A DNA stretch of 64,000 nt from Rothia mucilaginosa (GTDB taxonomy: Bacteria > Actinomycetota > Actinomycetes > Actinomycetales > Micrococcaceae): positions 454,739 through 518,738 of the forward strand of contig NZ_CABFLY010000001.1 in assembly GCF_901875305.1 (NCBI RefSeq), written 5' to 3'. A program made the position numbers and the translations under genes. The notes under the pieces are model-generated. The model was not told the origin of the DNA, did no database searches, and saw nothing but the letters and a program-made list of their open reading frames with translations. Positions 431 to 64,000 of the stretch are shown here, piece after piece; the stretch's first letter is position 1, and the number at the start of each line of letters is the position of its first letter.

Positions 431-2227
431 TTAGCGTACGATGTGGTACACCTTCGCCTCGTAGGGGCGCAGGGTCGAACCCGCGTCGTCCTTGTAGTTG
501 GAGCTCACCAGCTCAACACGAGCACCAGCCTCAGCAAGCACAGCGAAGTCACGCTCCTGCTCCTCGGCGGTGAAGTTCGAAACAACCAGCAGAGACTCGT
601 TCGCGGGGCTACCGTCGGCACCACCGGTACGGGTGTACGCATACACAGCCTCGTCCTCATCGTGGGGAACCTGAACCGAATCCACCGGAGCGAAGGACGC
701 GTACACCATCAGGTCCTTCAGCTCGCCGCGGCGCAGGTTGACCAAGTGCTGGTAGTGGTAGAACACCGAATCGGGATCGGCCAGAACTGCCTCGGCGTTG
801 ATTTCGGGGTAGTTCGGGTTCACGTTAATCCAGGTGGTCACACCCTCGGGGCTGAAGCCGGCGTTTGCCGAAGCATCCCACTGAACCGGGGTACGAGCGT
901 TGTCGCGGCCCTTAATGTAGATAGCCTGCATCGCCTCTTCGTGGCTCAGACGCTTGTGGTCCACGTGCATGTCCTCGTAGAAGCGGATCGAGTCACCATC
1001 GCGGTAATCCTCAATCGAATCGAACTTCACGTTGGTCATGCCCAGCTCTTCACCCTGGTAAATGTACGGAGTGCCCTGCATGAAGTGCAGGGTGGTTGCC
1101 AGCTGCTTAGCGGACAGGGTTCGGAACTCATCCGAATCGTTACCGAAACGGGAAACCACGCGCGGCTGGTCGTGGTTGTTCCAGTACAGCGAACCCCAAG
1201 CGTTACCCTCCAGGGTGGTCTGCCAGTCGTTCAGGATGCGCTTAAGCTCGGTCAGCTTGTACGGCGCGTAGGACCACTTGCCGCCCAGCTTGCCGTTCGG
1301 GTCGTTATCCACGCCCATGTGATCGAAGTGGAAGATCATGTTCAGCTCACCGGTGTGGTAGCCGGCCCACAGCTTAGCGTCCTCGGGGCTGGTTGCGCTG
1401 GTCTCACCCACGGTCATCACGTCGTAGCGGCTGAAGGTCTCGCGGGTGAGCTCCTTCATCCACGGGTGCACCATGGTGCCGTTCGTAATGACGAACGGAA
1501 TCGAGGAAGTGTGCTTCTCGTAGTCGGTGGAGGGGTCATCCGGGTAGCCCTCGGGCTTAGAGATGATGTTGATAGCGTCCAGGCGGAAGCCGTCAACGCC
1601 CTTGTCCAGCCACCAGCGGACCATGGAGTACAGGTCCTCGCGAACCTTCTCGTTCTCCCAGTTCAGGTCGGGCTGTTCCTTGAAGAAGATGTGCAGGTAG
1701 AACTGGCCGGTTGCCTCGTCCCACTCCCATGCCGGGCCGCCGAACTCGGACGCCCAGTTGTTCGGAGGAATCGGGTTGCCGTCCTCGTCGAAGCCCTTCG
1801 GGTCCTTCCAAATGTAGTAGTCGCGGTAGGGGTTGTCCTTAGAGGAGCGGGATTCCTTGAACCAGGGGTGCTCATCGGAGGTGTGGTTTGCGACCAGGTC
1901 CATGAGGATTTTGATGCCGTGCTTGTGAGCGGTCTCAAGCATCTCGTCGAAGTCTTCCATGGTGCCGAAGTCACTCATGATGGCGAAGTAGTCGGAGATG
2001 TCGTAGCCGTTGTCCACGTTCGGCGAGTCGAACACGGGGGAGAGCCAGATGACGTTGATGCCCAGCTTAGCCAGGTACGGCAGCTTCTCGGTGATGCCCT
2101 TCAGGTCACCGATGCCGTCGCCGTTCGCGTCGTTGAAGGAGCGGGGGTACACCTGGTACACCACGGCTTCCTTCCACCACTGGCGACCTTCGTAGGAGGG
2201 AACCTCGTATGCCTCGGAGTTGCTCAT
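431..2227 (-). CDS. GH13 alpha-glucosidase, probably alpha-1,4-preferring (oligo-glucosidase subfamily)
   Basis: 598 residues, usual for GH13 oligo-1,6-glucosidase/alpha-glucosidase relatives; no signal peptide, so cytoplasmic. The (beta/alpha)8 core carries DLVANH, the QPDLN motif of this subfamily (near residue 185), the nucleophile Asp217 in GFRLDAIN, the acid/base Glu275 in TVGET and Asp353 in NNHDQPR. The residue after the nucleophile is Ala218. In characterised relatives Ala or Thr here goes with alpha-1,4 activity and Val with alpha-1,6 activity, so I infer a maltose or maltodextrin-type substrate. It is the distal gene of a leftward group behind a paralogue and an EEP-family gene, divergent from a PTS alpha-glucoside transporter. 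Trehalose-6-phosphate or another phospho-alpha-glucoside is an alternative substrate. Confidence 0.9.
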   Translation of the reverse strand: MSNSEAYEVPSYEGRQWWKEAVVYQVYPRSFNDANGDGIGDLKGITEKLPYLAKLGINVIWLSPVFDSPNVDNGYDISDYFAIMSDFGTMEDFDEMLETAHKHGIKILMDLVANHTSDEHPWFKESRSSKDNPYRDYYIWKDPKGFDEDGNPIPPNNWASEFGGPAWEWDEATGQFYLHIFFKEQPDLNWENEKVREDLYSMVRWWLDKGVDGFRLDAINIISKPEGYPDDPSTDYEKHTSSIPFVITNGTMVHPWMKELTRETFSRYDVMTVGETSATSPEDAKLWAGYHTGELNMIFHFDHMGVDNDPNGKLGGKWSYAPYKLTELKRILNDWQTTLEGNAWGSLYWNNHDQPRVVSRFGNDSDEFRTLSAKQLATTLHFMQGTPYIYQGEELGMTNVKFDSIEDYRDGDSIRFYEDMHVDHKRLSHEEAMQAIYIKGRDNARTPVQWDASANAGFSPEGVTTWINVNPNYPEINAEAVLADPDSVFYHYQHLVNLRRGELKDLMVYASFAPVDSVQVPHDEDEAVYAYTRTGGADGSPANESLLVVSNFTAEEQERDFAVLAEAGARVELVSSNYKDDAGSTLRPYEAKVYHIVR

Positions 2228-2296
2228 AATTGCCTTTCTGTACCGGCGGGTTACGCCGAAGAGGAAAAAGGTGTCTGTGATTGAAGTATAGGGCGA

Positions 2297-2329
2297 AGGG
2301 GGACCGGAATGTCCGTTTCTGGTCCCCCT
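2297..2329. terminator. Hairpin between the two glucosidase genes
   Basis: A 9-bp stem (AGGGGGACC with GGTCCCCCT) lies just downstream of the upstream glucosidase gene and 70 bases before the ATG of the next one. No clear T-run on the minus strand, so it may attenuate rather than fully stop transcription. Confidence 0.5.
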
Positions 2330-2351
2330 CCGCGCAGGATATGGGGCGTGC

Positions 2352-4166
2352 TTACTCAGCGTTACCGAAGAGGTAGACCTTCGCTTCGTAGGGACGCAGC
2401 AGGGTGCCCTCGTCAGTGAACTCGCGGTTCTCGTCGCGGTAGTTCGAGCTAATCAGCTTCGGAGCGTTCTCGATAGCCTTCAGCTCAGTCGGGGAGAGCG
2501 CCTGCGAGTTGGTCAGCACCACCGAATCCAGGTTGCCGCCCGCGTAGTTCAGCTGAACGGTGTCATCGGTGAAGTTCGCGACGACCAGCAGGGCGCGCTC
2601 GCCGGATGCGGCAGCATCCTCGTCGGAGTTCACGCGCAGGTAGGCGTAGACCTGATCATCTTCCTCATCCAGCAGGCGGTACTCGCCGGTCAGAACAATC
2701 GGGTGCTCATGACGTAGCTTAATCAGGTCGCGGTAGTGGTAGAACACCGAATCCTGGTCTGCCAGCTCTGCCTCTGCGTTGATCTCGGTGTACCGCGGGT
2801 TCAGCTTCAGCCACGGGGTGCCGGAGGTGAAGCCCGCGTTCTCGCCGGCGGTCCACTGCATGGGGGTGCGTGCGTTGTCGCGGCCGGAGGCGCTGATGTA
2901 GCGTAGCATGTCCTCAGCGGAGACTCGGCCTGACTCTTCAACATACTTGCGCCAGGAGTCGTGAATCTCCAGGTCGTTGTAGTCCTTCACATCGTCGAAG
3001 AAGACGTTGGTCATGCCCAGCTCTTCACCCTGGTAGATGTAGGGGGTGCCCTGCATCAGGTGCAGCACGGTGCCCAGCATCTTGGCGCTGACGGTGCGGT
3101 ACTCGGGGGAGTCGTTACCGAAACGGGAGACGGTGCGCGGCTGGTCGTGGTTGTTCCAGTACAGGGAGTTCCAGCCGCGGCCGTGCAGGCCCTCCTGCCA
3201 GTGGGTGAGGACCTTCTTGAGGTCAACCAGGTTGAAGCGGCGGTCGGACCACTTGCCGGTCACGCCGCCCTCGGAGGCGTCCACATCCATGTGCTCGAAC
3301 TGGAAGACCATCTGCAGCTCGTTGCGGTCGAAACCGGTGTAGAGTGCGGCGTCGTCCACGGTTACGCAGGGAGTTTCACCCACGGTCATGACCGGGTACT
3401 TGCTGAGGACCTCGCGGTTCATTTCCTGCAGGAATTCGTGCACGCGCGGGCCGTTAGCTGCGACAGCCAGGGAGTTGTCGAGGCCACCGGCCAGTACTGC
3501 CGGGTCCTCGGGGAAAGAAAGGTCCTTGGAAATCAGGTTGATGACGTCCATGCGGAAGCCGTCCACACCCTTGTCGAGCCAGAAGCGCATGATGTCGTAG
3601 ACCTCTTCGCGGACCTTCGGGTTCTCCCAGTTCAAGTCGGGCTGCTTGATAGAGAAGTAGTGCAGGTAAAACTGGCCGGTCGCCTCGTCCCATTCCCATA
3701 CGGAGGGGCTGAAGCAGGAAATCCAGTTGTTCGGCGGAATCGGGTTGCCGTCCTCATCGAAACCTTTGGGGTCGCGCCAGATGTAGTAGTCGCGGTAGGG
3801 GTTGTCCTTGGAAGAACGCGCCTGCTTGAACCATTCGTGCTCGTCGGAGCTGTGGTTGACGACCAGGTCCATCATGAGCTTGATGCCATGCTCGTGCGCG
3901 GTGGCGAGCAGCTCGTCGAAGTCTTCCATGGTGCCGAACTCCGTCATGATGGCGCGGTAGTCGGAGATGTCGTAGCCGTTGTCGTCGTTCGGGGAGGCGT
4001 AGATGGGGGAGAGCCACAGCACCTCGATGCCGAGGTCTGCCAGGTACGGGATCTTCTCGGTGATGCCGGGCAGGTCACCGATGCCGTCGCCGTTGGAGTC
4101 GTTGAAAGAGCGGGGGTAAATCTGGTAGACCACCGGTTCCTGCCACCACTGGGTCTGGGTCGTCAT
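2352..4166 (-). CDS. GH13 oligo-1,6-glucosidase-like alpha-glucosidase, probably alpha-1,6-preferring
   Basis: 604 residues, a close paralogue of the next gene downstream (shared segments such as the NPIPPNNW and ATGQFYLH stretches). Catalytic residues by motif: Asp207 in GFRMDVIN, Glu264 in TVGET, Asp341 in NNHDQPR; QPDLN lies near residue 175. Position 208 is Val, the residue tied to alpha-1,6 (isomaltose/panose) activity in oligo-1,6-glucosidases, whereas the paralogue has Ala. No signal peptide. A GGGAGG-like ribosome site (reverse of 4172-4177) precedes the ATG. I infer that the pair splits the work between alpha-1,6 and alpha-1,4 linkages of starch-derived sugars. Confidence 0.9.
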   Translation of the reverse strand: MTTQTQWWQEPVVYQIYPRSFNDSNGDGIGDLPGITEKIPYLADLGIEVLWLSPIYASPNDDNGYDISDYRAIMTEFGTMEDFDELLATAHEHGIKLMMDLVVNHSSDEHEWFKQARSSKDNPYRDYYIWRDPKGFDEDGNPIPPNNWISCFSPSVWEWDEATGQFYLHYFSIKQPDLNWENPKVREEVYDIMRFWLDKGVDGFRMDVINLISKDLSFPEDPAVLAGGLDNSLAVAANGPRVHEFLQEMNREVLSKYPVMTVGETPCVTVDDAALYTGFDRNELQMVFQFEHMDVDASEGGVTGKWSDRRFNLVDLKKVLTHWQEGLHGRGWNSLYWNNHDQPRTVSRFGNDSPEYRTVSAKMLGTVLHLMQGTPYIYQGEELGMTNVFFDDVKDYNDLEIHDSWRKYVEESGRVSAEDMLRYISASGRDNARTPMQWTAGENAGFTSGTPWLKLNPRYTEINAEAELADQDSVFYHYRDLIKLRHEHPIVLTGEYRLLDEEDDQVYAYLRVNSDEDAAASGERALLVVANFTDDTVQLNYAGGNLDSVVLTNSQALSPTELKAIENAPKLISSNYRDENREFTDEGTLLRPYEAKVYLFGNAE

Positions 4167-7285: not shown

Positions 7286-7429
7286 TGTGTATATCCATCC
7301 CGTCAGGCTCTTACGCGGGTCTCTCGTGGAGGGCTTCGCGTGAGCGGGAACATCACGGCAGAACCGGGCTGCGGAATCTGAAGCGTGTACTATTTATATA
7401 TTGCTCACCATCGGATTCAGGAGCTCTGA

Positions 7430-27058: not shown

Positions 27059-27131
27059 CGCTACGCGGGGGAGTGCCCCCTCTGCGGCGCTGGGGGTGCT
27101 TCGAGGACGGAGCCCCCGCTTCGCATGACCG
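27059..27131 (+). repeat. Intergenic repeat copy 1
   Basis: 73 bases from CGCTACGCGGGGG to GCATGACCG. It contains GGGGG-AGT-GCCCCC and a GGGGG/CCCCC pairing across the second half, so it can fold. Near-identical to copy 2. Confidence 0.85.
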
Positions 27132-27216
27132 CCTCCGCCGCTACGTGGTCTCGCTACGCGGGGTTTTTCGTGCCTGAGGATGCATGAATAGAGATGCTTG
27201 CGCAGCTTTACGGTCT

Positions 27217-27288
27217 CGCTACGCGGGGGAGTGCCCCCTCTGCGGCGCTGGGGCGCCTTGAGGACGGAGCCCCCGCTTCGCATGACCG
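27217..27288 (+). repeat. Intergenic repeat copy 2
   Basis: 72 bases, same as copy 1 except in the middle (CGCCTTG here against GTGCTTCG in copy 1). Both copies are in the same orientation, about 158 bases apart. Confidence 0.85.
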
Positions 27289-31431: not shown

Positions 31432-31596
31432 ATGCCCGCAGGCGCCCCGCACCCGTTTCTTCTTGAGACCGACGGTGCCGCGCTTGGAAACGGGCACCAT
31501 TTTCGCCCTGTGCCCGCCCGCACCCGCCGCACCACGTACGCGGCGCATCCTGATCGTATGGCGGCACATGATTCGAAGGAAAACTTGTGGCTCTAA
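31432..31596 (+). CDS. Candidate 54-codon upstream reading frame overlapping the ychF start
   Basis: ATG at 31432 lies 10 bases after a TAGAAT box (31416-31421). The frame runs 54 codons (MPAGAPHPFLLETDGAALG...) and stops at TAA 31594-31596, overlapping the ychF GTG (31587) by 10 bases. No protein family recognised. If translated it could couple to ychF translation; otherwise this is a ~150-base leader. Low confidence. Confidence 0.28.
   Translation: MPAGAPHPFLLETDGAALGNGHHFRPVPARTRRTTYAAHPDRMAAHDSKENLWL
31452..31498 (+). promoter_or_regulatory. Possible alternative-stem leader of ychF
   Basis: CCCGTTTC (31452-31459) can pair with GAAACGGG (31487-31494), while GGTGCC (31474-31479) can pair with GGCACC (31493-31498); the two stems overlap and exclude each other. 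Attenuation is possible but unproven. Confidence 0.25.
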
Positions 31597-32672
31597 CTAT
31601 CGGCATTGTTGGCCTGCCTAACGTGGGCAAGTCCACCCTGTTCAACGCTCTGACCGGCAACACTGTGCTGGCGGCTAACTACCCGTTCGCGACTATTGAT
31701 CCGAACGTGGGCGTGGTGAACCTGCCGGATGCGCGTCTGAACCGTCTGGCTGAGATTTTTGGTTCGGAGCGTATTCTGCCTGCGACTGTTTCGTTCGTTG
31801 ATATTGCGGGTATTGTGAAGGGCGCTTCCGAGGGTGAGGGCCTGGGTAACAAATTCCTCGCGAATATTCGTGAGGCGCACGCTATTGCACAGGTTGTGCG
31901 TGCGTTTGATGACCCGGACGTCATTCACGTGGACGGCAAGGTTGACCCCGCCTCCGATATGGAGACCATTAACACTGAGCTGATTCTGGCTGACCTGCAG
32001 ACTTTGGAGAACGCTATTCCGCGTCTGGAGAAGGCTGTGAAGATTAAGAAGGGTGACGCCGCTCAGCTGGAGACTTATAAGACCGCGCAGAATATCCTGG
32101 AGGATGGTGAAACCATCATTTCTCGTGCGAAGGACGCGAAGCTGGAGCTGGCTCATTTGAAGGAGCTGAACCTGCTGACTGCTAAGCCGTTCATTTACGT
32201 GTTCAACGCGGATGAGGGCATTCTGGCGTCTGAGGAGAAGCAGCAGGAGCTGCGTGACATGGTGGCGCCGGCTGAGGCTGTGTTCTTGGATGCGAAGCTG
32301 GAGGCTGATCTGGTGGAGCTGTCTGAGGAGGAGGCTCGCGAGATGCTGGAGATGAACGGTCAGGATGAGTCTGGCCTTGACCAGCTGGCTCGTGTGGGCT
32401 TCTCGACTCTGGGTTTGCAGACTTATCTGACTGCTGGCCCGAAGGAGGCTCGCGCCTGGACTATTTACAAGGGTGATACTGCGCCGCAGGCTGCTGGCGT
32501 GATTCACTCTGATTTTGAGCGCGGCTTCATTAAGGCTGAGGTTGTGTCGTTCAAGGACCTGGATGAGGCTGGCTCCATGGCGGAGGCGAAGGCTCGCGGT
32601 AGGGTCCGTATGGAGGGCAAGGACTACATCATGCAGGACGGCGACGTGGTGGAGTTCCGCTTCAACGTCTAA
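31587..32672 (+). CDS. ychF: Ribosome-binding ATPase YchF (Obg-family)
   Basis: 361 residues with a GTG start behind GAAGGA. G1 GLPNVGKSTLFN, then PFATIDPN and VDIAGIVKGASEGEGLGNKFL; NKxD is altered as in YchF, which prefers ATP. The C-terminal TGS domain ends GDVVEFRFNV. The last 30 bases of the gene are repeated exactly at 34341-34370, flanking an AT-rich insertion. Confidence 0.96.
   Translation: MALTIGIVGLPNVGKSTLFNALTGNTVLAANYPFATIDPNVGVVNLPDARLNRLAEIFGSERILPATVSFVDIAGIVKGASEGEGLGNKFLANIREAHAIAQVVRAFDDPDVIHVDGKVDPASDMETINTELILADLQTLENAIPRLEKAVKIKKGDAAQLETYKTAQNILEDGETIISRAKDAKLELAHLKELNLLTAKPFIYVFNADEGILASEEKQQELRDMVAPAEAVFLDAKLEADLVELSEEEAREMLEMNGQDESGLDQLARVGFSTLGLQTYLTAGPKEARAWTIYKGDTAPQAAGVIHSDFERGFIKAEVVSFKDLDEAGSMAEAKARGRVRMEGKDYIMQDGDVVEFRFNV
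32643..32672 (+). repeat. 30-bp direct repeat, left copy (3' end of ychF, att-like)
   Basis: The last 30 bases of ychF including its stop codon. An identical 30 bases occur at 34341-34370 on the other side of an AT-rich insertion. Confidence 0.95.
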
Positions 32673-32698
32673 AGCTGGCGGGTCGATAGGACTTTGAG

Positions 32699-32750
32699 AA
32701 TCCGGTGACGGAGGGATGACGAAATTCATCTCACTGTCACCGGATTTTTT
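32699..32750 (+). terminator. Terminator just downstream of ychF, inside the insertion
   Basis: AATCCGGTGAC (32699-32709) pairs with GTCACCGGATT (32736-32746), followed by a T-run. It would stop ychF transcription before the inserted gene. Confidence 0.8.
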
Positions 32751-32962
32751 GTACCCTTAGATTGTAATGTAAACCGCTAATTGAATAAGGTGATTTGTCT
32801 GAGGTGGTTCTAGGGGAAGCGGGGTATATTATTTTCGAATGAAATAAATGGGTGAAAATGAGTTAACCCGTTGTCGTCAATTTTGACTTATAGTTGAAAG
32901 ATTTATAGGTAACGCATTGGATTGTTTCATTGTAGAATTTTGAGAGTATTTATTTGGAGGAT
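32751..32962 (+). promoter_or_regulatory. AT-rich promoter region of the ApeA-like gene
   Basis: Holds TTGACT at 32883-32888 with TATAGG-like boxes 15-17 bases downstream, and a palindrome GTCAA-TT-TTGAC at 32876-32887 overlapping the -35. This suggests the gene has its own repressible promoter. A GGAGG ribosome site lies at 32956-32960. Confidence 0.45.
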
Positions 32963-34339
32963 ATGTTGTTGGATAAACCTTTGAATCTCGCGGAGAAAAA
33001 TGAGTGGTTAGGCGAATGGAGTATACCAGATGCTTTTGAAGGAAAGGTTTTGGGGAGCCTGAAACATGATGGATCTGGCGGTATAACTCTTGAGCTGTAT
33101 ATTGATTCTCGGAATAGTGAATTTGTAGCCAGAAACTATGAAGTTATACATGGAACTTCTGGAGCGCAAGAGATTACTCTTTTGGGTGTAAGGGCTGGCC
33201 TTAATCTTAAATCTATTCCTGCAAGGTTTCCTCATCGTGTCTCATATAAAGTTGATTCTGTAATTATTGGAGCTCATGTGGAAAATCGGGACTATGAAGC
33301 ATTTAGTAAGTTACGTGTTTCGATTGAAGATACTAACTGCTGGAATGGAGCTTCTGAGATTTCATCTAGAATCCCAACGCATAGTGTCGATGATTCGGAA
33401 GAGTACGGTGTTTTCGTCGTAAAAAATAATCCTGTCCCTGTAGAAGTTGATGGAAAAATATATCAAATCGTATCGGGGGACGTGAGTACTTCTGTTGACT
33501 TTAAAAAAGGTGAAAGCTCTGGAAATTTGCGCGTGCAAGATTTCTGGGAAGTTAGCTCGCCTTCGCTATTTTCTCTCGACAAAGCTTTGGGAGAAGTGAA
33601 GATACTTCAGGACTTATTGTCTTTTGCAACTTGTCGTGCTGCGGGAGTTATCTGGATTCAGCTTGAGGTTGCTGGGACAGAAAGCGAACTTCCTAACGGT
33701 ACGCCTTTACCCCCTCGTCGGGTTGACGTGATTTCCTCACTAATGGGAATTGGGAAATATGATTTAGAATGTATTGACCCTCGCCGTTTTCTGTTTACGT
33801 GCGAATCAATCCCTTTTGAACTTATAGTACCTAGATGGATTGGTCTTTATAGGGATATGCGAGTTTCAATTAATATGATTATGGCTCAGATTTTTGCACC
33901 TATGCCATTTGTTGAAAATAGTCTTCTGATGGTTACTGGAACCGCTGAAGTGTTGCATAAAAACCTCAATATTTCTGATACGATGTATCTGAAAGGGCGT
34001 CTTGTTGAGCTTGCATCGACGTTTATTAAGGATGCTTCACCGCTGTTGATTCCTGATATTCCGTATTGGGCGAGTAGAACTGTGAAAGCTCGGAATAAAC
34101 TTACTCATGAGGGAACAACTGATGAACATTCGGTTGATGAGCTACTTGCGATAATCAAAGTAACAAGAGCAGTTATAACTCTTGCTGTCCTGGAGAAGCT
34201 TGAAATCTCTGGCGAGCATCAGAAATGTGTAGTAGATAGGCATCCTCAATTTATCGAAACAGCTAGGGATGCTAGAGATTGGCTTACCCCTCCACCGGAA
34301 GAAATAACTGAGGAAAAACAAAACAATACTGATGCATGA
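32963..34339 (+). CDS. ApeA-like HEPN-domain protein, putative anti-phage (abortive infection) factor
   Basis: 458 residues from ATG 32963 (two TTG codons follow at 32966 and 32969 with better spacing to GGAGG; start not settled). The N-terminal region matches the ApeA N-terminal domain pattern: LGEWSIPDAFEGKVLGSLKHDGSGG-type start followed by beta-strands and LLGVRAG. The C-terminal helical region (about 280-420) carries the HEPN nuclease motif R-x4-H as RNKLTH (Arg377, His382). HEPN proteins of this sort are RNases; ApeA is a single-gene anti-phage system in Enterobacteria. Base composition and position within a duplicated ychF end point to transfer. No antitoxin gene nearby. Function is inferred, not shown. 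Confidence 0.7.
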   Translation: MLLDKPLNLAEKNEWLGEWSIPDAFEGKVLGSLKHDGSGGITLELYIDSRNSEFVARNYEVIHGTSGAQEITLLGVRAGLNLKSIPARFPHRVSYKVDSVIIGAHVENRDYEAFSKLRVSIEDTNCWNGASEISSRIPTHSVDDSEEYGVFVVKNNPVPVEVDGKIYQIVSGDVSTSVDFKKGESSGNLRVQDFWEVSSPSLFSLDKALGEVKILQDLLSFATCRAAGVIWIQLEVAGTESELPNGTPLPPRRVDVISSLMGIGKYDLECIDPRRFLFTCESIPFELIVPRWIGLYRDMRVSINMIMAQIFAPMPFVENSLLMVTGTAEVLHKNLNISDTMYLKGRLVELASTFIKDASPLLIPDIPYWASRTVKARNKLTHEGTTDEHSVDELLAIIKVTRAVITLAVLEKLEISGEHQKCVVDRHPQFIETARDARDWLTPPPEEITEEKQNNTDA

Positions 34340-34340
34340 T

Positions 34341-34370
34341 GACGTGGTGGAGTTCCGCTTCAACGTCTAA
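34341..34370 (+). repeat. 30-bp direct repeat, right copy
   Basis: Identical to 32643-32672. Starts one base after the stop codon of the ApeA-like gene and is followed at once by the terminator at 34388. Confidence 0.95.
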
Positions 34371-34387: not shown

Positions 34388-34426
34388 GCGGAGCCCCGCA
34401 CTACAGTTTGTAGTGCGGGGCTCCGC
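34388..34426. terminator. Very strong 18-bp terminator
   Basis: GCGGAGCCCCGCACTACA (34388-34405) with its complement (34409-34426), loop GTT. Probably the original ychF terminator; it also stops transcription from the ApeA-like gene and the leftward molbindin gene. Confidence 0.88.
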
Positions 34427-62341: not shown

Positions 62342-63705
62342 GCGCACGCGCCGAGCTCACTGAGCCGAGCGAGCCGGCGGAGCATACCGCATCCCGCGCC
62401 GAGCAGAACCGGTCCGAATCCTTCGACGAAGCCCTGACATGGATGTACACCTCCTCTGCCGAGCGTCTGCGCCGAGCGGGGGAGCGCCTGAGCGCCCTGC
62501 CCGCCTGGCTTTCGGTGCTGCTCATCTACGGGATTTCGCGTGTGTGGGGCTACGTAGTGTTCGCCGTGGTCGGACAGCAGCAGCTGCGCGGCCCCTGGGG
62601 CGAGCACCTGAGCTACCTCTCCTTCATCAGCACCTGGGATGCCGGCTGGTACGAGCAGATTGCGCTCAACGGCTACCCGAGCGAGCTGCCGATCAACGCG
62701 ATGGGGGCTGTTCAACAGAATCAGTGGGCGTTTTATCCCATCTTTCCGCTGCTCTCTCAAGGGATCAGCCGCTTGACGGGCATCGCCTACTACCCGGTGG
62801 CCGCCGCTGTCGCTCTGCTGGCCGGTTTTGCGGCAGCCTGGATTATCTACCTGCTTTTTGATGCTTCGGTGAAGGCGGTTCGCCTCGCGCGTTCCGGGTC
62901 TGACTCCGCTGATGCGGAGCTCGCCTCCACGCTGGCTTTGTGGGGTGTGGCCCTGGTGTCGTTCCTGCCGGTGGCTCCCGTGCTTCAGGCGCCTTACGCC
63001 GAGTCGCTGAACCTGGTGTTCCTGGCCGGTGCGCTACTGTGCCTTGTGAAGGGGCGTTACGGCTGGCTGGTGCCGGTTGCGGCCCTGGCGTGTCTTTCCC
63101 GCCCGGTGGGTGTTCCGCTGGGTGCGGTTGCGGGCCTGTGGTGGTTTGCGTGTTGGGCTCGGTCGAGCCGCGTTATGGGTATCGGTACGGCCTTTGTGCG
63201 CCACGCGGGGCAGCTGGTGAGCGCCTTGCTGGTGTGTGCGTGCGCGCTGGTATGGCCCGCGATTGCGTGGTGGGCTACCGGCCGTGTGGATGCTTACACG
63301 GCCACCGAGACGGCTTGGCGAGGCACGCATCTGGCGCCGATTGAGCCGTGGCTGACGCAGGGGTACATCTACTTTGGGTACGCGGCCCCGATTCTGCTGG
63401 TTTTGCTGATTCTGGGCTTTGTTGCGCTGTGCTTGAGCCCGGTGGCTCGGGGTGTTTTGGCCGCTCCGCTGAATCTGTGGTGCGCATGCTACTTTGCCTA
63501 CTTGATTCTGTTTTTGAACCCGCAGTCGTCGACGTTCCGTCTGCTGTTGCCGCTGTTCCCGCTGGTTGTGGTGGTTGCGGCGCTGAGTCGTTCGCGGGCT
63601 TATCGCTGGGCGTTGCTGGTGGCGGGTGCGTGCGCGCAGTGGGGCTGGGTTGGCTGGCTGTGGCATTGGAAGCAACTCCCCGGCGGTGGAGACTATCCGC
63701 CGTAA
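62338..63705 (+). CDS. PIG-V-like mannosyltransferase family membrane protein
   Basis: 455 residues. A polar N-terminus (~55 residues), then about nine membrane helices. TWDAGWYEQIALNGYP and FYPIFPLLSQGISR match the conserved first loop and the FYPxFPLL motif of PIG-V/GPI mannosyltransferase-like proteins; the Asp of WDAGWY is the likely catalytic residue. May add mannose from a polyprenyl donor to cell-envelope glycans. The last codons (GGGDYPP) lie inside the first unit of the 122-bp tandem repeat. Confidence 0.8.
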   Translation: MSARAELTEPSEPAEHTASRAEQNRSESFDEALTWMYTSSAERLRRAGERLSALPAWLSVLLIYGISRVWGYVVFAVVGQQQLRGPWGEHLSYLSFISTWDAGWYEQIALNGYPSELPINAMGAVQQNQWAFYPIFPLLSQGISRLTGIAYYPVAAAVALLAGFAAAWIIYLLFDASVKAVRLARSGSDSADAELASTLALWGVALVSFLPVAPVLQAPYAESLNLVFLAGALLCLVKGRYGWLVPVAALACLSRPVGVPLGAVAGLWWFACWARSSRVMGIGTAFVRHAGQLVSALLVCACALVWPAIAWWATGRVDAYTATETAWRGTHLAPIEPWLTQGYIYFGYAAPILLVLLILGFVALCLSPVARGVLAAPLNLWCACYFAYLILFLNPQSSTFRLLLPLFPLVVVVAALSRSRAYRWALLVAGACAQWGWVGWLWHWKQLPGGGDYPP

Positions 63706-64000
63706 ACCGAATACTGTTTTGCGAGACCGCCGGGGTGCTGCCGGCGGTCTTTTGCGTTCGGGAGGCGGGCGTGTCTGCGGTAGGAGCCGTAGCGTTTTAA
63801 CCCGGCGGTGGGGATTATCCGCCGTAAACCGAATACTGTTTTGTGAGACCGCCGGGGTGCTGCCGGCGGTCTTTTGCGTTCGGGAGGCGGGCGTGTCTGC
63901 GGTAGGAGCCGCAGCGTTTTAACCCGGCGGTGGGGATTATCCGCCGTAAACCGAATACTGTTTTGTGAGACCGCCGGGGTGCTGCCGGCGGTCTTTTGCG
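63681..64000 (+). repeat. 122-bp tandem repeat, each unit with an intrinsic terminator
   Basis: Units at 63681-63802, 63803-63924 and 63925-64000 (cut by the window end), near-identical with a few single-base changes. Each has CGGCGG...CCGCCG and the terminator stem AGACCGCCGG/CCGGCGGTCT followed by TTTTGCG (63724-63753, 63846-63875, 63968-63997). The first unit overlaps the end of the preceding gene. Confidence 0.93.

Follow-up and report, generated by a model that had tools for sequence, protein, structure and literature searches.

The ychF 3′ end as a probable attachment site for large serine recombinase elements, with an integrase-less ApeA-type cassette in Rothia mucilaginosa

In the staphylococcal cassette chromosome (SCC), recombinases target the 3′ end of the housekeeping gene rlmH, which stays intact, and direct repeats of the gene end partition arrays that include psiSCC elements without ccr and a type I restriction system (as described in PMC4723332). 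Here we compare with SCC the 3′ end of ychF, the gene for an OLA1-type GTPase, starting from a 64,000-nucleotide stretch of the oral bacterium Rothia mucilaginosa (contig NZ_CABFLY010000001.1, positions 454,739 to 518,738, forward strand; 'the window') in which one AT-rich gene for an ApeA-type HEPN protein stands between two copies of the ychF end. We read the ychF 3′ end as an SCC-like attachment site for elements carrying large serine recombinases (LSRs), and the window insert as an integrase-less defence cassette in it (probability of roughly 0.75). The reading was reached by comparison: the repeats, an empty site, exchange of cargo, cassettes common to distant genomes, the linkage of LSRs to ychF and an attP/attB-like geometry of the sites. 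That an LSR moves the window cassette in trans, where exactly the crossover falls and that the cargo acts in defence, we infer.

By analogy, the ychF system resembles SCC in its 3′ gene-end target, which is left intact, in the gene-end copies that split arrays and in its recombinase-less cassettes, but it is no member of SCC, its target being ychF rather than rlmH, in another phylum, with Rothia cassettes of ~0.5-2.6 kb, a YchF tail that is sometimes rewritten and one LSR gene where SCC uses pairs of Ccr recombinases. The serine integrases of phages A118, Bxb1 and phiC31 share with it a 5-bp arm shift and, for 24 of 24 informative Micrococcaceae genomes but not for the window, an LSR gene near the site, but most Rothia cassettes are without an integrase and the site almost wholly mimics the gene end. 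Integron cassettes provide a functional likeness only, being small, exchangeable and arrayed behind a fixed site, but here insertion is at a gene end and no integron integrase was seen beside the array; among the 12 Rothia genomes in which the ychF end is repeated, none has a match to the tyrosine recombinase profile PF00589 closer than 40 kb to ychF, so far as the contigs extend. The ychF neighbourhood is also an integration site in Streptococcus pneumoniae, where a prophage attB lies beside ychF, but upstream of the gene and with another sequence (PMC8637289, PMC10383233). No paper that connects serine integrases or islands with the ychF 3′ end, or that names this end as a hot spot, was found in the literature searched (mostly without subscription papers), in line with an earlier note on this DNA that had called it not established as one.

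One gene between two copies of the ychF end

An exact 30-bp direct repeat duplicates the end of ychF with its stop codon, and the 30-mer has two copies on the + strand of the window and none on the − strand. Between the copies lies a single gene (GC content of the insert 0.408, against 0.602 across the window) whose stop, at 34339, falls one base short of the right copy. The earlier note had described this duplication, the one AT-rich gene ending next to the right copy and the lack of an integrase inside, all of which stood: the repeat search covered both strands, the insert holds a single gene, and a ychF-linked LSR used as query had no match in the whole window. The features are as follows.

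31587..32672, + strand: ychF, OLA1-type GTPase gene (Pfam YchF-GTPase_C, 1.4e-38), its 3′ end the putative attachment site
32643..32672, + strand: left 30-bp repeat copy, with a putative central GT at 32649-32650 and an attB-type right arm, AACGTCT, at +13
32699..32746, + strand: terminator (inverted repeat and T run) at the left end of the cassette
32963..34339, + strand: apeA-like gene, ATG start, 458 amino acids (aa), likely frame; ApeA_NTD1 and HEPN_Apea domains, PADLOC candidate PDC-S58
34091..34108, + strand: HEPN R-x4-H motif, RNKLTH (R376 and H381 invariant in the alignment)
34341..34370, + strand: right 30-bp repeat copy, far end of the cassette; left flank poor as an attP arm
34388..34426, + strand: probable original ychF terminator with 18-bp arms (a similar stretch lies directly 3′ of the ychF stop in genome G028)

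Judged by domains over cut-off and the R-x4-H motif, the window protein is an ApeA-type HEPN protein, as the earlier note had proposed. Searches with 32966-34336 (457 aa, first Met omitted) matched Pfam ApeA_NTD1 (E 2.4e-32, 112.9 bits against a curated cut-off of 25.5) and HEPN_Apea (E 4.2e-9, 37.4 bits against 24.4) and the PADLOC family PDC-S58, where we take PDC to mean a candidate defence family; R376, N377 and H381 do not vary across an alignment of 31 sequences that includes the query. Searching proteins returned 71 relatives; of the first 14, one is a 99% identical fragment and the other 13 match along their full length at 79-95% identity, and one of them bears the name Rothia. There was no match in NCBIfam, in a search of phages or, for ApeA peptide patterns, in genome contigs and viral contigs. 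The AlphaFold model is confident and two-part, beta-rich and then helical (mean pLDDT, the predicted local distance difference test, 83.9); comparison with the PDB gave nothing at E ≤ 0.001 and a profile search no solved relative, and the predicted structure is thus a source of fold confidence, not of new kinship. Of the profile and structure check that had been suggested, the Pfam half was positive for both domains and the structural half returned no relative. The ApeA family is described in PMC3710099, and with its PDC-S58 members the window protein shares ApeA_NTD1 and HEPN_Apea with R-x4-H, but its gene stands as a solo cassette at ychF. The gene most likely encodes an RNase that would act in abortive anti-phage defence.

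Further exact repeats of at least 22 bp are present in the window and look, by position, paralogous or tandem: a tandem repeat with a period of ~122 bp at 63694-64000, which reaches the window end; stretches repeated at a spacing of ~1970 bp at 751-4104, perhaps two paralogous genes; and a tandem duplication at 27059-27285 with a spacing of ~158 bp.

Empty site, exchanged cargo and cassettes common to distant genomes

A search for YchF across 35 genomes from the genus of R. aeria ('Rothia genomes') gave full-length matches in 34, G032 being the exception; a search of plasmids for ychF gave no match. The four genomes nearest the window (G013, G014, G015 and G028; YchF protein 98-99% identical) differ in what separates ychF from the next conserved genes, and all of them, like the window, have additional DNA in the interval from ychF to the mop gene. 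G028, whose ychF is 96.2% identical without the last 30 bp, has an empty site: directly 3′ of the ychF stop stands a terminator similar to the one behind the right copy of the window, with other DNA further downstream and mop at +4395. Repeats and empty site together uphold the earlier proposals that a protein-gene attachment site had received an insertion with the ychF end restored, and that the terminator at 34388 was probably the original one of ychF. The comparison across Rothia that had been suggested yielded both an empty site and other cargo at the same place, and vertical descent in all Rothia without empty sites, named in advance as refuting, is contradicted by G028 and by the differing contents.

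A coding-frame pattern of the ychF end had 45 matches in 30 of the 35 Rothia genomes (reversed control, 0). Seventeen of these were extra copies, in 12 of the 35 genomes; 16 shared the contig and strand of ychF and lay on its downstream side, and the 17th closes a ychF fragment that lies on a G004 contig other than that of ychF. Distant copies, ~48-56 kb from ychF, number two in G010 and one in G009. A looser count (at least 22 of the 30 bases, within 8.7 kb downstream of ychF) gave 18 far copies in 10 Rothia genomes besides that of the window, G023 included. Arrays reach three cassettes (G006, G007 and G015, where one of the three is a remnant), and the left end of the window cassette also starts cassettes in G013, G014 and G006, plus a remnant in G015.

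In most Rothia cassettes, the resemblance to ychF breaks off at one place 5′ of the 30-mer, give or take a few bases, and next to unrelated genes, the exceptions being the G015 copy at +2506 and the copies of G017, G019 and G020. One cassette, present in G006, G014 and G015, is distinguished at its left end by a single-base difference at repeat position 13; because this difference travels with the cassette left end, the exchange would lie left of position 13, within a short stretch. Repeat position 9 is C in G013, G014 and the empty G028. Longer ychF pieces were also seen: at ychF +2306 to +2506 in G015, a 200-bp ychF 3′ fragment with a few differences from ychF ends the methyltransferase cassette, where 30 bp is usual; and on G004 contig C67 (~2742-3148) ~400 bp of the ychF 3′ end spread over two frames, with phnA ~750 bp past the fragment (C67:7906) and the full ychF on a different contig.

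The cargo varies among Rothia cassettes. ApeA/PDC-S58 proteins lie between copies in the window, G013 and G014, those of G013 and G014 being 30% and 32% identical to that of the window. Other cassettes hold a type II methyltransferase (G015); an MNT/HepT toxin-antitoxin pair (Pfam matches on G020, near-identical frames in G017, the left gene only in G019); a PDC-S06/PrrC-like ATPase and an Mrr-type nuclease (G007, with a further protein weakly matching the CAP12/Pycsar TIR domain below cut-off, E 2.3e-4); and PDC-S46 and one plain acetyltransferase gene (G012). A 374-aa gene of G014 and a 393-aa gene of G006 had no match in Pfam, PADLOC or PHROGs, and a 282-aa gene of G006 none in Pfam. Frames of 362 and 407 aa in G006 and G015 resemble the 374-aa gene; this protein of 362-407 aa, common to cassettes of the three genomes, is a candidate new defence gene. 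In G017 and G020, a HepT-like frame (ychF +445 to +817) and the far copy end on the same base, so that the last HepT residues are encoded by the repeat. Downstream of ychF with no repeat found nearby are an ApeA gene (G021), an Eco57I-type methylase (G024) and type III and IIG restriction genes (G009, G011).

Outside Rothia, genomes with dissimilar ychF genes hold nearly identical cassettes. Genome G518 and Arthrobacter castelli (locus L034), with ychF 74% identical, have 600 bp in common at 95.7% identity, encoding a DUF1801 protein: in G518 the stretch runs from ychF −27 to +572 with a site core at +553, and in A. castelli from +7367 to +7964, between site cores at 7376 and 7945. A Nesterenkonia metagenome-assembled genome (L040) and [Zimmermannella] faecalis (L051), with ychF 73% identical, have 2783 bp in common at 97.3%, with a gene for a P-type ATPase domain, at −29 to +2753 (core 2740) in the former and +4774 (core 4783) to +7556 in the latter, where no core was detected at the +7556 end. 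In Arthrobacter locus L004, the flank directly behind ychF corresponds to the L008 flank behind the site at +692 (91% over 1527 bp; ychF identity 87%). These common stretches point to a mobile unit bounded by ychF-end sites. The A. castelli locus has five core sites and also holds an oxidoreductase, a multicopper oxidase, an acetyltransferase and a regulator, and cargo outside Rothia is often non-defence. As a side observation, ychF +3380 to +3967 of locus L010 matches, at 84% identity, the 586 bp that come directly after ychF in L057, and the L057 flank also has a 94% copy directly behind L010 ychF, so that the cassette or flank is present twice in L010.

Large serine recombinases beside ychF and the geometry of the site

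In R. aeria, an LSR lies 52 bp behind ychF, and the LSR profile PF07508 matched 8 of the 35 Rothia genomes, in four of them (G001, G009, G010 and G022) a few kb or less downstream of ychF. With the G010 LSR as query (cut-off E ≤ 1e-40), matches were found in 30 of 395 Micrococcaceae genomes. Where identity was at least 40% and the contig informative, the LSR lay downstream of ychF in 24 of 24 genomes, at 0.05 to ~36 kb (remnants in G007 and G074 are included, and some have a stop); two more genomes (G199, G268) were cut by contig ends. Four LSRs of at most 36% identity were not beside ychF, that of G180 being 2.6 Mb away and those of G038, G166 (near contig ends) and G343 on other contigs. Searching viral contigs with nothing but the ychF-end pattern picked out five. 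In three of them (L144, L146 and L148) an LSR starts within ~80 bp of the ychF-end site; of the other two, L147 has ychF itself and L145 had no LSR match. Viral contigs held neither the exact 30-mer nor the attP-arm motif given below. A more distant LSR relative, L150, has no ychF-end mimic in 200 bp around its start and was set aside. G205 and G254 have what look like whole elements of ~8 and 9 kb, in which ychF has a new tail, the LSR begins ~30-45 bp from the far ychF-end copy and a phage capsid protein is encoded (with a replication initiator in G205); these look like capsid-forming phage satellites.

The sites have an orientation and a shape. In 1.03 Mb of sequence downstream of ychF, the core GTNGARTTYMGN had 57 occurrences on the strand of ychF and 9 on the opposite one; in 0.62 Mb upstream the numbers were 3 and 5 (this set contains a few genomes twice). 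At 39 unselected downstream sites, in 23 of 78 non-Rothia loci, similarity to a left arm, AGAGGTT, peaked exactly 18 bp left of a central GT (4.33 of 7, other offsets ≤2.26), and 23 of the 39 had at least 5 matches to a form of AGAGGTT, compared with 1 of 14 control sites. The mirrored right arm stands at +13 (5.47 of 7) in the 89 of 113 ychF ends with FRFNV tails (or FKFNV after VD) and at +18 (4.29 of 7) in the 24 with other tails, a mean that keeps six tails (for example, FRFAV and FKFNV) that are not clear element tails and counts one genome twice (L023 = G209). Serine integrases have an outer motif shifted by 5 bp about the central dinucleotide between attP and attB (PMC3783163), and the difference between AGAGGTT-N18-GT-N18-AACCTCT and the +13 arm corresponds to this shift; with the arm at +18, tails of the FRSGLTSGGKK type can be read as a translated attP arm. 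A search of 394 Actinomycetia genomes with the left-arm motif found 9 sites in 7 genomes (reversed control, 0). Eight of the sites, in 6 of the 7 genomes, follow ychF on the same strand at a distance of 0.5-4.7 kb, and G577 has a tandem row of three; the ninth (G750) is on a different contig from ychF. The search is partly non-independent, G046 being the genome of L040 (100% over 1810 bp), which gave a motif site; without G046, 7 of 8 sites and 5 of 6 genomes had the motif downstream of ychF. For the system as a whole, attP- and attB-type arms with the 5-bp shift are present. Repeat copies alone bound the exchange left of position 13 and suggest that it lies right of position 6; an exchange inside GAG (positions 10-12) was considered and dropped, arm symmetry pointing to GT at 7-8.

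Proposed mechanism, rival explanations and meaning

We propose that the ychF 3′ end serves as attB for an LSR clade of phage-like Actinomycetia elements, with a probable crossover at a GT that precedes the end of the ychF frame, counted with its stop codon, by 22 bp. An incoming element would bring a new YchF C-terminal tail, often FRFNV again and sometimes another (for example, FRSGLTSGGKK), and repeated insertions beside ychF with loss of recombinase genes would leave arrays of integrase-less cassettes split by ychF-end copies. The window would hold one such cassette, with one ApeA-type gene and, before it, a terminator that probably ends ychF transcription. The window insert has one gene, as the earlier note had said, but it is not an isolated event: an LSR clade of Micrococcaceae seems to use the ychF end, similarly designed sites occur in other Actinomycetia, and successive insertions produce arrays.

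Several observations weigh against this proposal. The R. aeria LSR frame is without the N-terminal part present in its relatives, and no recognisable far site was found for it. The earlier note had suggested looking elsewhere for a recombinase with matching sites, and a ychF-linked LSR clade was indeed found, but PF07508 detected no LSR in the four genomes nearest the window. The +13 motif also encodes Asn-Val-stop, and coding constraint alone would give it. Under a position weight matrix built on 27 sites hand-picked from the 57 (canonical picked sites, 7.9 to 31.3), the window far copy, with AACAATA at N18, scored −9.2 (P ~0.02 against random) and those of the G013 and G014 ApeA cassettes −19.8 and −20.8; among 19 Rothia far copies, window included, the five of G007 and G012 scored 16.6 to 30.6, the second G014 cassette 10.4 and the other 13 at most 3.3. 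Three of the 19 have no GT at the putative core, which reads AT in G013 and at G006 +1753, and GC at G012 +1567. Both window copies carry attB-type right arms, and attB × attB is inefficient for the serine integrases studied in PMC3783163. Because the right window copy is not a clean attP-type arm, we infer mobilisation of the window cassette from its neighbours; in the window group, gene ends may have overgrown the arm, the recombinase may have diverged or the cassettes may have spread by DNA uptake.

Such spread is the substance of one competing explanation, that cassettes of the R. mucilaginosa group move by homologous recombination after uptake or transduction and that the repeat is mere shared homology. 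The ychF 3′ fragments of 200 bp in G015 and ~400 bp in G004 are more like this process than site-specific exchange, most far copies of the group are without a canonical attP arm and the two window copies are identical at 30 of 30 bases. We nevertheless consider it the less likely account: 30 bp is short for RecA, ychF likeness stops near one place beside unrelated genes in most Rothia cassettes, the position-13 difference in G006, G014 and G015 places the exchange within a short stretch, and arm geometry outside Rothia is that of serine integrases. A tyrosine recombinase or XerC/XerD acting at the ychF end seems improbable to a much greater degree. Gene-end attachment sites with a restored frame are typical of tyrosine integrases, and PF00589 matched once in G032 and at least twice in each of the other 34 Rothia genomes, in G010 inside the 54-kb stretch from ychF to the far copies (C11:203077). 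In the other 11 genomes with extra copies, however, the PF00589 matches listed are on other contigs or >290 kb off; the 18/13-bp arm geometry suits serine integrases; none of the small cassettes read has a ychF-adjacent tyrosine integrase with a 30-mer attP; and the site is, to our knowledge, unlike dif. A vertically inherited fixed gene with a chance duplication could account for the extra DNA between ychF and mop in all five genomes, but not for their differing contents, for ApeA proteins as dissimilar as those of G013 and G014 or for the site empty at ychF in G028, and on these sequence comparisons it appears already refuted.

Attachment of LSR elements at the ychF 3′ end, with the window insert as an integrase-less defence cassette, is thus the reading that we retain. 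A broader proposal, which we offer tentatively and at a little under even odds, is that Actinomycetia ychF ends host an SCC-like system. LSRs belonging to phages or satellites would act in trans on cassettes that lack an integrase and often hold one gene; in Rothia these would be mostly defence cassettes and form exchangeable immune arrays, and with each insertion the C-terminal tail of YchF, a translation-linked GTPase, would be chosen. The site would provide a bounded, motif-marked hot spot for harvesting actinobacterial defence genes, those between ychF-end copies being candidate anti-phage systems (several in Rothia without a Pfam match), and its serine integrase family, with predicted attP and attB, might be put to use in Actinobacteria. 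It would also be a second natural case, beside SCC, of recombinase-less cassettes stacked at the end of a housekeeping gene, which opens mobilisation in trans to direct testing.

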